DNA of 64,000 nucleotides from Geodermatophilus obscurus (GTDB taxonomy: Bacteria > Actinomycetota > Actinomycetes > Mycobacteriales > Geodermatophilaceae): positions 1 through 64,000 of the forward strand of contig NZ_FRDM01000013.1 in NCBI RefSeq assembly GCF_900143215.1, in the 5' to 3' direction. A program made the position numbers and the translations under genes. The stretch's first letter is position 1, and every line of letters begins with the position of its first letter. Below are positions 6,497-14,056 of the stretch, piece by piece. The notes beneath the pieces were generated by a model. That model saw only the letters and a list, made by a program, of their open reading frames with translations. It was not told the origin of the DNA and made no database searches.

Positions 6497-7165
6497 GTGT
6501 CCTATCTCCTTCGGCTGGTCGTGCCCGACCGCCCCGGCATCCTCGGCGCGGTGGCCACCGCGCTCGGCGAGGCGGGCGTGGACATCGTCTCCGTCGACGT
6601 CCTGGAGCGCGGTGGCGGCGTAGCCGTCGACGACATCCTCGTGGACCTGCCCACGGGCCGGGTGCCGGACAGCCTGATCACCGCCGCGCGGTCGGTGCCG
6701 GGGGTGCAGGTCGAGTCGCTGCGCCCCTTCGCCGGCCCCCTCGACATGCACCGCGAGCTCGAGCTGCTGGAGGCGCTCGCCCGGGCGGCCGAGGACACCG
6801 CCGCGAAACTGCTCGCCGCCGAACTCCCTCGGGTCTTCCACAGCGGCTGGGCCGTCGTCCTCCGGGGCGCGCAGCGGTGTCCCTGCGAGGTGCTCGCCGC
6901 CTCCGAGGCCGCGCCCACCTTCGACGAGATGACCCTGCCCTGGCTGCCCATGTCCGCGCCGCAGCTCCTGCCGAGCGAGGCGGAGTGGCTTCCCGAGCGG
7001 TGGCGGGAGATGGCCATCGAGATGATGGCCACCCCCTTCGGCGACCCCGGGACGGCCGTCGTCATCGGCCGCTCCGGCGGGCCGGCGTTCCGCCGCTCGG
7101 AGCTGCTGCGGCTGGTCCACCTCGCCGGCATCGCGGCCAGCGTCGCCCACCTGCCCCCGGCCTGA
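6497..7165 (+). CDS. ACT-domain protein (Rv3013-like)
   Basis: 222-residue cytoplasmic protein. Residues about 3-70 form one ACT domain (LLRLVVPDRPGILGAVATALGEAGVDIVSVDVLERG), typical of amino-acid-binding regulatory modules. The C-terminal half has a GAF-like alternating hydrophobic pattern with the conserved-looking segments LPWLPMSAPQLLPSEAEWLPERW and GTAVVIGRSGGPAFRRSEL. Mycobacteria carry an ACT-domain gene in the same place between ligA and gatC, also divergent from gatC, so this is likely its ortholog. GTG start with GGAGG five bases upstream. Ligand and partner are unknown. Confidence 0.8.
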   Translation: MSYLLRLVVPDRPGILGAVATALGEAGVDIVSVDVLERGGGVAVDDILVDLPTGRVPDSLITAARSVPGVQVESLRPFAGPLDMHRELELLEALARAAEDTAAKLLAAELPRVFHSGWAVVLRGAQRCPCEVLAASEAAPTFDEMTLPWLPMSAPQLLPSEAEWLPERWREMAIEMMATPFGDPGTAVVIGRSGGPAFRRSELLRLVHLAGIAASVAHLPPA

Positions 7166-7246
7166 GCTCTCACCTCGCCGGCTAACCGGCCGCTCGCGCG
7201 CTCGGTCGACCGCCACCACTTCTCCTTCCTGAGCTGGGCTTTCCGC

Positions 7247-7276
7247 TTGCAGCAGCACCCTGTTCGAACGTATGAT
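7247..7276 (+). promoter_or_regulatory. Predicted promoter of the DUF222-HNH gene
   Basis: TTGCAG (7247-7252), 18-base spacer, then TATGAT (7271-7276). The downstream ATG at 7284 is 7 bases past the -10 box, so the transcript is probably leaderless. The -10 lies inside the LexA-type box. Confidence 0.5.
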
Positions 7277-7279
7277 CGA
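7264..7279 (+). promoter_or_regulatory. LexA (SOS) box
   Basis: TCGAACGTATGATCGA matches the actinobacterial SOS consensus TCGAAC-N4-GTTCGA at 11 of the 12 defined positions. It covers the -10 element, so LexA binding would block transcription. In mycobacteria several 13E12/DUF222 repeat-family genes are SOS controlled, which supports the reading. Confidence 0.72.
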
Positions 7280-7283
7280 TTGC

Positions 7284-9500
7284 ATGGGCGACGGCGGGCG
7301 GACCAGCACCCCGGGTGCCGAAGCTGCGCCCACCGTGGGGTGGGCGTCCGGTCCGCTGGGGGTGGTGCAGGCCGCGGACCGGGAGATCGCCCGGCAGGTC
7401 GCGGTGCGGGCGCGGGCGGTGGCGGCGTTCGCCGCGTCGCGGCCGGCGTGGACGGACCGGCAGCAGGGCGAGCGGGGCGCGATGAGCGCCGAACGCTGGG
7501 CGGCCCGCCCGGAGGTGCTGCGGTCGGTGTCGGAGTGGGCCACGCCGGAGCTGGCGATCGCGGTGAACCTGACCCAGCAGGCCGCGCAGGACCTGCTGCA
7601 GGAGTCCTTGACGCTGGTGACCCGGCTGCCGGGCACGCTGGCGGCGCTGGAGTCCGGGCTGCTGCACCGGGGGCACCTGTGGCACCTGCTCGACAAGGTC
7701 GCCCCGATCGCCGATGACCGGCTGCGCGCCGAGGTCGAGGCCGACCTGCTGGCCTGGGTCGGTCGGCGGCAGACGGTAACCTCCCCGGCGCAGCTAGGCG
7801 ACAAGGCCCGCAGGGTGGTCGCTCGGCGTGATGCCGCGGCGGCCGGGCGGCGGCTGGCCCGGGCGCTGAAGGAGCGCGGCATCTCGATCCGGCCGGAGCG
7901 GGCCGACGGGATGGCGGCGGTGACGGTGGTGTGCACGCTGCCGGAGGCCAGGGCCTTCTACGCCGCGCTGGTGCAGTGCGCCGAGGCGCTCGTCGACGAG
8001 CCCGGCGGGCCGGTGCGCACCCGCGGGCAGAAGATGGTCGACGCCCTCGTGGACTTGGTGCTGCGCCCCGGGAAGACCGACCTCCCACCGGTACAGGCGC
8101 TGCTGACCATCGTGGCCTCGGTGCACACCGCCCTGGGTGGCGACCAGCTCGGTGAGGTGGACGGCATGGCGGTCCCGGCGGAGATGGCCCGCCAGCTGGC
8201 CCGCGCGTTCGCCGGCCTGGACACCACCCCGTCCGGTGCTGAGGACATCACCACAGACCGCACCGCCAGGGACGGCACCGCGGCTGACGGCATCGTCACC
8301 GAAGCGGCCGGATCGCCGGAGGACAGCGCGACCACCGACGACTCAGCGGTCACCACGGGCAGCACCGTCGGCACCGACATGGAGACCCGACCGGTCGACA
8401 CGGAGCCGAACGACACCGCGTCGTCGGCCGGGGGCACATCCTGGCCCGACGATGTCGAGGGCGGCCCGGTCGAGCGGGCCGCCCAGGAGTTGAGCGGCTT
8501 CGACTTCGACCAGTGGCTGCAGGAGCTGGTGCGCTCCGGCTTCGGCGATGACCCCGCCCCCGATGACCCTGGCTGGCTCCCCGGTGGGCCACCGGACCCC
8601 AGCGAGTGGGACGCCGGTCCCTGGCACGACCCCTGTGAGTGGCTCGACGACCACGACCACGACCACGACAACGGCCACGACCAGCACCTGCCCGCACCCG
8701 ATCCCGATAGCGATGCCGATGCCGATGCCGATGCCGATGGTTCGGCGTCGCCGGACGGTGATCCGCCCGGCGGTGGCTGGTGGGCGGCCGCCGACTGCGC
8801 GGTGGACCAGGCAGGTGCGACGGTGCACGCCGCCCGGCTGGCGCTGGGCGCGGCCAGGCGGATGGTGCGCACCGCGCAGAAGGCCGACGCCGCCGACGAG
8901 GCCGTCTGGGAGGTGAGCACCGCCGGGCGGGTCACCGCCGCCGACGACGCCCTCGCCGCCCTCGCGGTGGCCGCCGACACCCAGCGTGAGGAGTTGGCCG
9001 CGCTGCTGATGGCCACAGGCGGGGGTGGGCTGGCCGACCAGCCCCGCATCGCGGTCACCGACGCGATCACCGGCGCCCTGCTGACGCTGACCGACCTGCC
9101 TCAGCTTCGGCGCACCGGCACCTGTGGGCGACCGGCGTGCCGGCGCCGGCCGGAAGCCTGCGGCCACGACCTGACCGGCCGCCCTGGTCTCGGCCGGCCC
9201 GGCCCCACCGACGCCTACGCGCCGGGTGCGGCGCTGGACCGGTTCGTCCGCGCCCGCGACCGGCGCTGCCGCTTTCCCGGCTGCCGCCGCCGCGTGCCCA
9301 AGGCCGGCGAACTGGACCACCACCGGCCGCACGCCGAGGGTGGGGGGACCGCCGCAGCCAACCTGGCCGGCTACTGCACCGGCGACCACCGCGGCAAACA
9401 CCAGGCCCCCGGCTGGCGACACGACCTGGCCCCCGACGGCAGCCTCACCGTCACTACCCCCACCGGCCTGACCGCCACCACCCAACCCCCGCCCTACTGA
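7284..9500 (+). CDS. DUF222 / 13E12-repeat family protein with C-terminal HNH nuclease domain
   Basis: 738 residues. The N-terminal half (about 25-285) is the DUF222 region: MSAERWAARPEVLRSVSEWAT, LLHRGHLWHLLDK and RRVVARRDAAAAGRRLARAL. A low-complexity acidic, His/Asp-rich stretch follows (around residue 450), including DDHDHDHDNGHDQH and a DADADADAD run. The C-terminal HNH endonuclease domain reads CRFPGC...LDHHRPHAEGG...N...GDHRGKHQ, with the Cys pair and His residues intact, so nuclease activity is plausible. Such genes are multicopy in actinobacteria and often considered mobile; true substrates are unknown. The start at 7284 is preferred over an ATG 12 bases upstream because that ATG lies within the -10 hexamer. 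Confidence 0.9.
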   Translation: MGDGGRTSTPGAEAAPTVGWASGPLGVVQAADREIARQVAVRARAVAAFAASRPAWTDRQQGERGAMSAERWAARPEVLRSVSEWATPELAIAVNLTQQAAQDLLQESLTLVTRLPGTLAALESGLLHRGHLWHLLDKVAPIADDRLRAEVEADLLAWVGRRQTVTSPAQLGDKARRVVARRDAAAAGRRLARALKERGISIRPERADGMAAVTVVCTLPEARAFYAALVQCAEALVDEPGGPVRTRGQKMVDALVDLVLRPGKTDLPPVQALLTIVASVHTALGGDQLGEVDGMAVPAEMARQLARAFAGLDTTPSGAEDITTDRTARDGTAADGIVTEAAGSPEDSATTDDSAVTTGSTVGTDMETRPVDTEPNDTASSAGGTSWPDDVEGGPVERAAQELSGFDFDQWLQELVRSGFGDDPAPDDPGWLPGGPPDPSEWDAGPWHDPCEWLDDHDHDHDNGHDQHLPAPDPDSDADADADADGSASPDGDPPGGGWWAAADCAVDQAGATVHAARLALGAARRMVRTAQKADAADEAVWEVSTAGRVTAADDALAALAVAADTQREELAALLMATGGGGLADQPRIAVTDAITGALLTLTDLPQLRRTGTCGRPACRRRPEACGHDLTGRPGLGRPGPTDAYAPGAALDRFVRARDRRCRFPGCRRRVPKAGELDHHRPHAEGGGTAAANLAGYCTGDHRGKHQAPGWRHDLAPDGSLTVTTPTGLTATTQPPPY
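8645..8669 (+). repeat. Hexanucleotide repeat (GACCAC) in HNH gene
   Basis: About four tandem GACCAC-type units encoding Asp-His pairs; length changes by whole units keep frame. Confidence 0.8.
8711..8738 (+). repeat. Hexanucleotide repeat (CGATGC) in HNH gene
   Basis: More than four tandem CGATGC units encoding Asp-Ala pairs, near-perfect and therefore prone to slippage. Confidence 0.85.

Positions 9501-9579: not shown

Positions 9580-14056
<4,477 letters not shown>

Follow-up and report, generated by a model that had tools for sequence, protein, structure and literature searches.

A predicted LexA operator enclosing the -10 element of a probably leaderless DUF222-HNH gene in Geodermatophilus obscurus

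The window gene, its promoter and its protein

The stretch of DNA analysed here (the window, 64,000 nucleotides of a Geodermatophilus obscurus genome) contains on its forward strand a DUF222-HNH gene of 738 amino acids (7284-9500), which is probably leaderless and translated from the ATG at 7284. Its 5' neighbour on the same strand (6497-7165) gave only weak ACT-type matches, and its 3' neighbour on the opposite strand (9580-11838) was read from its translation as ligA, the gene of the NAD-dependent ligase. Between the upstream gene and the DUF222-HNH gene lies an SOS box, TCGAACGTATGATCGA (7264-7279, no strand assigned), the predicted LexA-type operator, which differs from TCGAACNNNNGTTCGA at a single position (A replacing T at box position 12) and is the sole site in the 64-kb window with at most one mismatch. 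Sites with up to three mismatches numbered 62 against 20.2 in shuffled sequences, and since this class is itself about three times as frequent as chance, only tight matches to the box are informative. Direct reading places a -35-like hexamer, TTGCAG (7247-7252, forward strand), 18 nt upstream of a -10 element, TATGAT (7271-7276, forward strand), which is followed after 7 nt by the ATG at 7284-7286; the operator-like box therefore encloses the -10 and ends 4 nt 5' of the start codon. An earlier note on this DNA had described the one-mismatch box, its position and these promoter spacings, all of which are correct to the base. A second in-frame ATG, at 7272, lies within the box. No Shine-Dalgarno sequence was found before the ATG at 7284 on reading of the sequence, which, together with the gap of roughly 7 nt between the -10 and the start codon, is the geometry of a leaderless gene. 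Further upstream, a conserved TGASCTGCGG-like element, here TGAGCTGGGCTTTCC (7230-7244, forward strand), resembles an element found before many DUF222 promoters of the genus.

The same note had assigned a DUF222-HNH protein to the gene behind the box, and profile searches agree: DUF222 (PF02720) was detected with 41.2 bits against a cut-off of 24.4 (Pfam E 1.6e-10), and the C-terminal HNH domain matched the PHROG HNH profile (E 3.3e-6), while Pfam HNH stayed under its cut-off (E 0.0013; 19.3 bits against 21.4). The HNH nuclease motif spans residues 654-708 (9243-9407, forward strand), and its residues C662, C667, H679, N693 and H702 are invariant across 13 diverse family members, the profile of which matches the HNH of IscB (8e-7). 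NCBIfam returned nothing for the DUF222 protein except a chance match at 0.086, and PADLOC gave no match. Values of pN/pS between 0.48 and 0.63 against seven relatives, not all of them from the window locus, indicate that protein changes are constrained.

For the N-terminal helical domain (residues 34-184; 7383-7835, forward strand) a ParB/Noc-like DNA-binding fold is tentatively suggested by structural models. The full-length model was poor (pLDDT 60.8) with a confident N-terminal part, and the domain modelled alone reached a pLDDT of 88. The first 14 rows of a Foldseek search with this model were all ParB/Noc chains, at non-significant E values of 0.68-3.1. A structure aligner likewise placed ParB/Noc domains at ranks 1-11, with Z scores of 6.3-8.4 (a range that might reflect a common helical arrangement), unrelated rows following at 5.0; the ParB/Noc superpositions had an rmsd of 2.5-3.3 Å over 95-105 residues. 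Sequence profiles gave fainter signals: the profile of the 13 diverse members (A1, hmmsearch) had a weak N-terminal match to Spo0J (E 0.02), a subfamily profile (A4) had no ParB match, its best being LptE at only 0.017, and single hhalign comparisons with the ParB helix-turn-helix gave E values of 0.0077 and 0.051 at probabilities of only 5% and 1%, over the stretch LP..AL..G.l..GH. One sequence in the ParB alignment (A5), the divergent ParB-like protein L313, was ruled out as a DUF222 protein. The N-terminal domain differs from ParB/Noc domains in being fused to an HNH domain.

The box in the host genome, at the same locus and in the subfamily

The window operator matches the host's own LexA-type boxes. 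Three boxes precede lexA (two perfect, one with a single mismatch), recA has a box with one mismatch, and perfect boxes lie before dnaB, a Pol IV gene and the probable dnaE2, a gene with a PHP domain. Genome-wide, 416 sites with up to two mismatches were counted against 199 for the reversed pattern, each site of this palindromic pattern being counted on both strands; of the 50 listed sites that have no more than one mismatch, 11 belong to DUF222 genes or to copies of a DUF222 promoter at contig ends. The perfect box ahead of the replicative helicase gene dnaB (L003) is at G000 C17:7376-7391. A second nuclease-like family has the same kind of site: at locus L088 the SOS box TCGAACGTGTGTTCGG (1518-1533) directly precedes the start of a LAGLIDADG_3 open reading frame (1534-2895). 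Near-identical DUF222 promoters occur at the ends of contigs C21, C67, C51, C59 and C83 of the window genome (G000), which suggests that several almost identical copies are present and have broken the assembly.

The ACT-type upstream gene was found in all 26 genus genomes, and a box with at most one mismatch lies right behind it in ten of them, the window genome included. These ten boxes agree at all 12 defined positions, including the non-consensus A, and their columns have a mean identity of 0.96, where the two flanks reach 0.55 and 0.57, calculated over the ten genomes with an intact box (G016, G006 and G019 left out). As these genomes were chosen for a box with at most one mismatch, the agreement is partly a product of selection, and the fair evidence is the common odd base, the common -10 and the lower identity of the flanks. 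The -35 is less uniform: TTG stands one base nearer, with a 17-nt spacer, in eight of the ten boxed genomes, so that the window's 18-nt spacer exceeds that of most relatives at this locus by one base, and G001 has CTG.

Among the ten boxed genomes, some copies look incomplete: G023 has the box but only fragments of the gene, and G010 and G009 give partial matches only. Outside the ten, the box of G016 is split by an insertion and the gene contains stop codons; the insertion, at locus L133, is IS-like, with inverted ends seen by eye. The last 23 residues of the gene remain in G024, and G006 retains the first codons and an apparently damaged box (judged by eye). In G019, also G. obscurus, the DUF222 copy at this locus is preceded by a PafBC-type promoter. 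Twelve genus genomes have no box within 400 nt behind the upstream gene, and in the five of these twelve that were checked (G025, G015, G022, G018 and G021) tblastn found no DUF222 at the locus and ligA was present there. In G025 the neighbouring ACT protein is 98% identical, yet ligA occupies the locus without a DUF222 match.

In a tree of N-terminal parts, for which seven same-locus copies were long enough, these copies mostly group with other copies of their own species and not by locus (clearly so in G. nigrescens, G. obscurus and strain DF01-2; the window and TF02-6 copies are near each other), and strict orthology of the same-locus copies was therefore rejected. Judging from these sequences, the copies may either have spread recently within genomes or have been homogenised by conversion, and the species-wise clustering makes the same-locus boxes less independent of each other. 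With regard to a homing or mobile element, the gene is multi-copy, has near-identical copies and is present or absent at one locus, and no ends or target duplications of the gene unit were established; a mobile element carried by plasmids or phages was rejected, as neither collection yielded a tblastn match to the window protein at E 1e-5.

Relatives of the window gene were examined as a subfamily of 79 loci. They come from 94 matches, of which the best 80 were listed, and most belong to Geodermatophilus or Blastococcus, with a few in other Geodermatophilaceae and two in records marked unverified. Promoters were counted at 62 of the 79, leaving aside 17 in which the match started after residue 24. 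A box precedes 57 of the 62 genes (1 in the reversed control) and has no more than one mismatch in 54 (0 in the control), and an in-frame start follows at a fixed distance from the first box base, +20 in 44 and +19 in 8, i.e. in 52 of the 57 boxed genes. TANNNT occurs at the window's position in 52, and GATCGA is common to 48. Of the five boxless genes, three have TGTCR-N11-TANNNT; in L247 TGTCGGTGG continues into TCGAACAT on the border of the examined stretch, and L239 has neither box nor TGTCR-N11-TANNNT. Because in M. tuberculosis the centre of TANNNT reportedly lies 7-12 nt ahead of the transcription start, this fixed distance amounts to a leaderless geometry, and the leaderless arrangement proposed in the earlier note is in this respect well founded. 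The gene might instead carry a leader, being translated from the ATG at 7272 or transcribed from further upstream, with the box serving only as a roadblock. The ATG at 7272 is indeed in frame inside the box, and other family members in the window genome have a Shine-Dalgarno-like stretch and starts about 10-17 nt behind the box. For the window gene we nevertheless consider a leader unlikely: no Shine-Dalgarno sequence precedes 7284, and the 19-20 nt offset is kept also where the box reads ...CATACGATCGA, without an ATG, which favours 7284 as the start.

The family across the phylum and a second type of promoter

Of 119 genomes sampled across the phylum, 48 contain DUF222, and 21 genus genomes have 3-21 DUF222-HNH copies each. 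We assembled 128 DUF222 genes, 14 from the window genome, 47 from 20 genus genomes and 67 from the phylum sample (37 genomes); this set was hand-picked among the matches listed, which stop short of the weakest ones, and is not random, includes several copies from some genomes and two identical copies (L005 and L006), and was reduced from 131 by dropping L008, L020 and L110, with less than 100 nt of upstream DNA (L201, the same gene as L100, was not used). A box with at most two mismatches precedes 100 of the 128 genes (12 in the window genome, 37 in the genus, 51 in the phylum), where the reversed pattern gives 2 and shuffled sequences 2.65, and one with at most one mismatch precedes 62, compared with 0 and 0.15. 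Beside unrelated genes the box was found at 0 of 26 loci in each of three stretches next to two genes; these controls cover genus and family genomes only, one stretch lies inside the ParB coding sequence, and in the ACT control the stretch at one locus (L053, at a contig end) was misplaced by about 245 nt.

Across DUF222 genes the -10 abuts the box or falls inside it. In the 97 of the 100 boxed genes with 45 nt of upstream sequence, TANNNT begins at -6 from the box start in 37, at -5 in 20, at +7, the position in the window, in 26 and at +16 in 10; these classes may overlap, and the mean at the remaining offsets, with +16 included among them, was 0.34. Many DUF222 promoters of the genus are preceded by a longer module, in the order GTCAAG, TCTGTGGACARGC, CTGASCTGCGGATTC, -10 and box, as at the type A loci, L007 and L009 among them (one instance is G000 C83:127401-127426). 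Its TGTGGACAR part resembles a DnaA box and, when one mismatch is allowed, was found in 19 of 33 type A genes (0.37 in shuffles), 7 of 50 phylum genes (0.93) and 1 of 14 others (0.07). The joined module pattern has seven matches in the window genome, five of them at DUF222 genes or contig-end copies.

A second damage-responsive type of promoter, that of PafBC (RecA-NDp) with the motif TGTCRGTG-N8-TANNNT, also occurs in the family. The shorter pattern TGTCR-N11-TANNNT precedes 42 of the 128 genes against 0.25 in shuffles, and its spacing is nearly exclusive, with no matches at neighbouring spacings and four at spacings of 13, 16 and 17. It is present in 18 of the 28 boxless genes; the other ten have neither element, so that 118 of the 128 genes carry a box, TGTCR-N11-TANNNT or both. 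The full RecA-NDp motif was matched exactly by 11 of the 128 and within one mismatch by 16. Among the 18 boxless genes with TGTCR, five are close to RecA-NDp, whereas most, 13, have TGTCRNACC or nearly so, a variant in which they differ from the RecA-NDp promoters. TGTCRNACC-N7-TANNNT has seven matches in the window genome and none in the reversed control; DUF222 genes account for four of them, and another precedes what we read as an alkylguanine methyltransferase gene. SiwR was considered as the reader of TGTCRNACC and rejected, as its described site is a 19-bp palindrome with GGA at -26 and a text search of the source found no TGTC.

The two switches alternate even among copies of one species that are 87-94% identical. 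In G. nigrescens two of five copies are of the PafBC type and 87-92% identical in nucleotide sequence to the three copies with a LexA box, and in G. obscurus one of four is of the PafBC type and 90-94% identical to the others (identities over about 750-900 nt). The 28 boxless genes among the 128 and the PafBC-type promoter of G019 at the same locus indicate that LexA control is replaceable. A palindrome, TCACCCGATCGGGTGA, was seen before the PafBC-type promoters of L221, L241 and L271 (G. obscurus and G. nigrescens).

These promoters raise the alternative that PafBC-type activation is the main damage input to the window gene, with LexA merely trimming its expression. Besides the frequency of TGTCR-N11-TANNNT in the family, above all in boxless genes, and its use in G019 at the same locus, the window genome encodes two WYL domains, candidates for PafBC, on the same strand and separated by about 1 kb. 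The window promoter, however, has no TGTCR 16 nt upstream of its -10 but carries the -35-like TTGCAG, TGTCRGTG-N8-TANNNT is absent ahead of its -10, and the gene is outside the set within one mismatch of RecA-NDp among the 128 scanned, which makes a leading role of PafBC here very improbable.

LexA control and the possible role of the family

LexA control of this family has been published for M. tuberculosis, where it is known as 13E12. The SOS box of that species is TCGAAC(N)4GTTCGA, and 13E12-family HNH genes have been placed in a proposed LexA-controlled repair system (PMC4181829), Rv0515, Rv1702c, Rv3074 and Rv3776 are probable 13E12 members of the LexA regulon (PMC5005354), and mitomycin C switches on five putative HNH endonucleases through RecA (PMC8151990). 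The likeness to the window gene thus comprises HNH-domain genes, an SOS box and the LexA regulon, the link being drawn through the common REP13E12/HNH/DUF222 naming; the window gene differs in its occurrence in Geodermatophilaceae, its -10 inside the operator, its leaderless geometry and the 3-21 copies per genus genome. Genes bearing both RecA-NDp and an SOS box have also been described (PMC8223512); the DUF222 family resembles RecA-NDp/PafBC promoters in its exact matches and differs in that the motif is missing at the window promoter and that the switches swap between close copies. A further HNH nuclease, MSMEG_1275, cuts chromosomal DNA and inhibits the growth of M. smegmatis when overexpressed (PMC9416677); it is similar in being an HNH nuclease raised along with DNA repair genes, but is controlled by an ArsR-type regulator. 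A word search of the main text of the Streptomyces venezuelae LexA regulon paper found neither HNH nor DUF222.

We conclude, with a probability of about 0.85, that the window gene is an actinobacterial DUF222-HNH (13E12-type) member which is held off by LexA, leaderless and induced by DNA damage. The sequence side of what the earlier note had claimed, an SOS-type operator on the -10 of a DUF222-HNH gene in leaderless geometry, is strongly supported by the comparisons across locus, subfamily and phylum, and the box itself is real and conserved, being very probably a LexA operator on a leaderless promoter; LexA binding, tight repression, damage induction and the RNA start of the window gene are predicted. 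That the box might be a chance palindrome-like match in GC-rich DNA, without LexA binding, is hardly credible, for although loose sites are frequent in the window (62 against 20 expected), the box stands at a fixed place in 57 of 62 subfamily genes, precedes 100 of the 128 family genes (2 with the pattern reversed) but is found at 0 of 26 loci in each of the three stretches by two unrelated genes, and is kept in ten same-locus genomes despite diverged flanks.

Under LexA control, the repressor bound at the box would keep RNA polymerase off the promoter core. Upon DNA damage, RecA on single-stranded DNA would lead to self-cleavage of LexA, the -35/-10 promoter would fire, and transcription would start at or within 1-2 bases of the ATG at 7284. 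The leaderless mRNA would then yield a protein that probably binds DNA by its N-terminal domain and cuts it by its HNH domain. The cutting may serve repair, host killing or self-spread of the gene.

The damage-type promoters of 118 of the 128 genes, and a switch that differs between recent duplicates, suggest that selection preserves damage-licensed expression. A broader and rather speculative view, which we regard as possible but doubtful, is that DUF222-HNH proteins are phylum-wide damage-licensed DNA cutters that combine a ParB/Noc-like site reader with an HNH nuclease, the copies of which multiply and are nearly all under a LexA or PafBC-type switch because unlicensed expression is harmful, with the TGTCRNACC form marking an undescribed sub-regulon. 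Within the openly licensed literature, the phylum-wide reach, the operator-embedded leaderless promoter, the exchange of switches and the tentative ParB/Noc-like fold appear to be new, part of which could be in print elsewhere. DUF222-HNH genes are both widespread and repeated, and the recurrence of these promoters in most sampled relatives of the phylum predicts that the family is off until DNA is damaged. Geodermatophilus is a desert genus that tolerates radiation and drying and, with 3-21 copies per genome, may permit a direct test of whether these proteins are repair enzymes, suicide nucleases or self-spreading elements.
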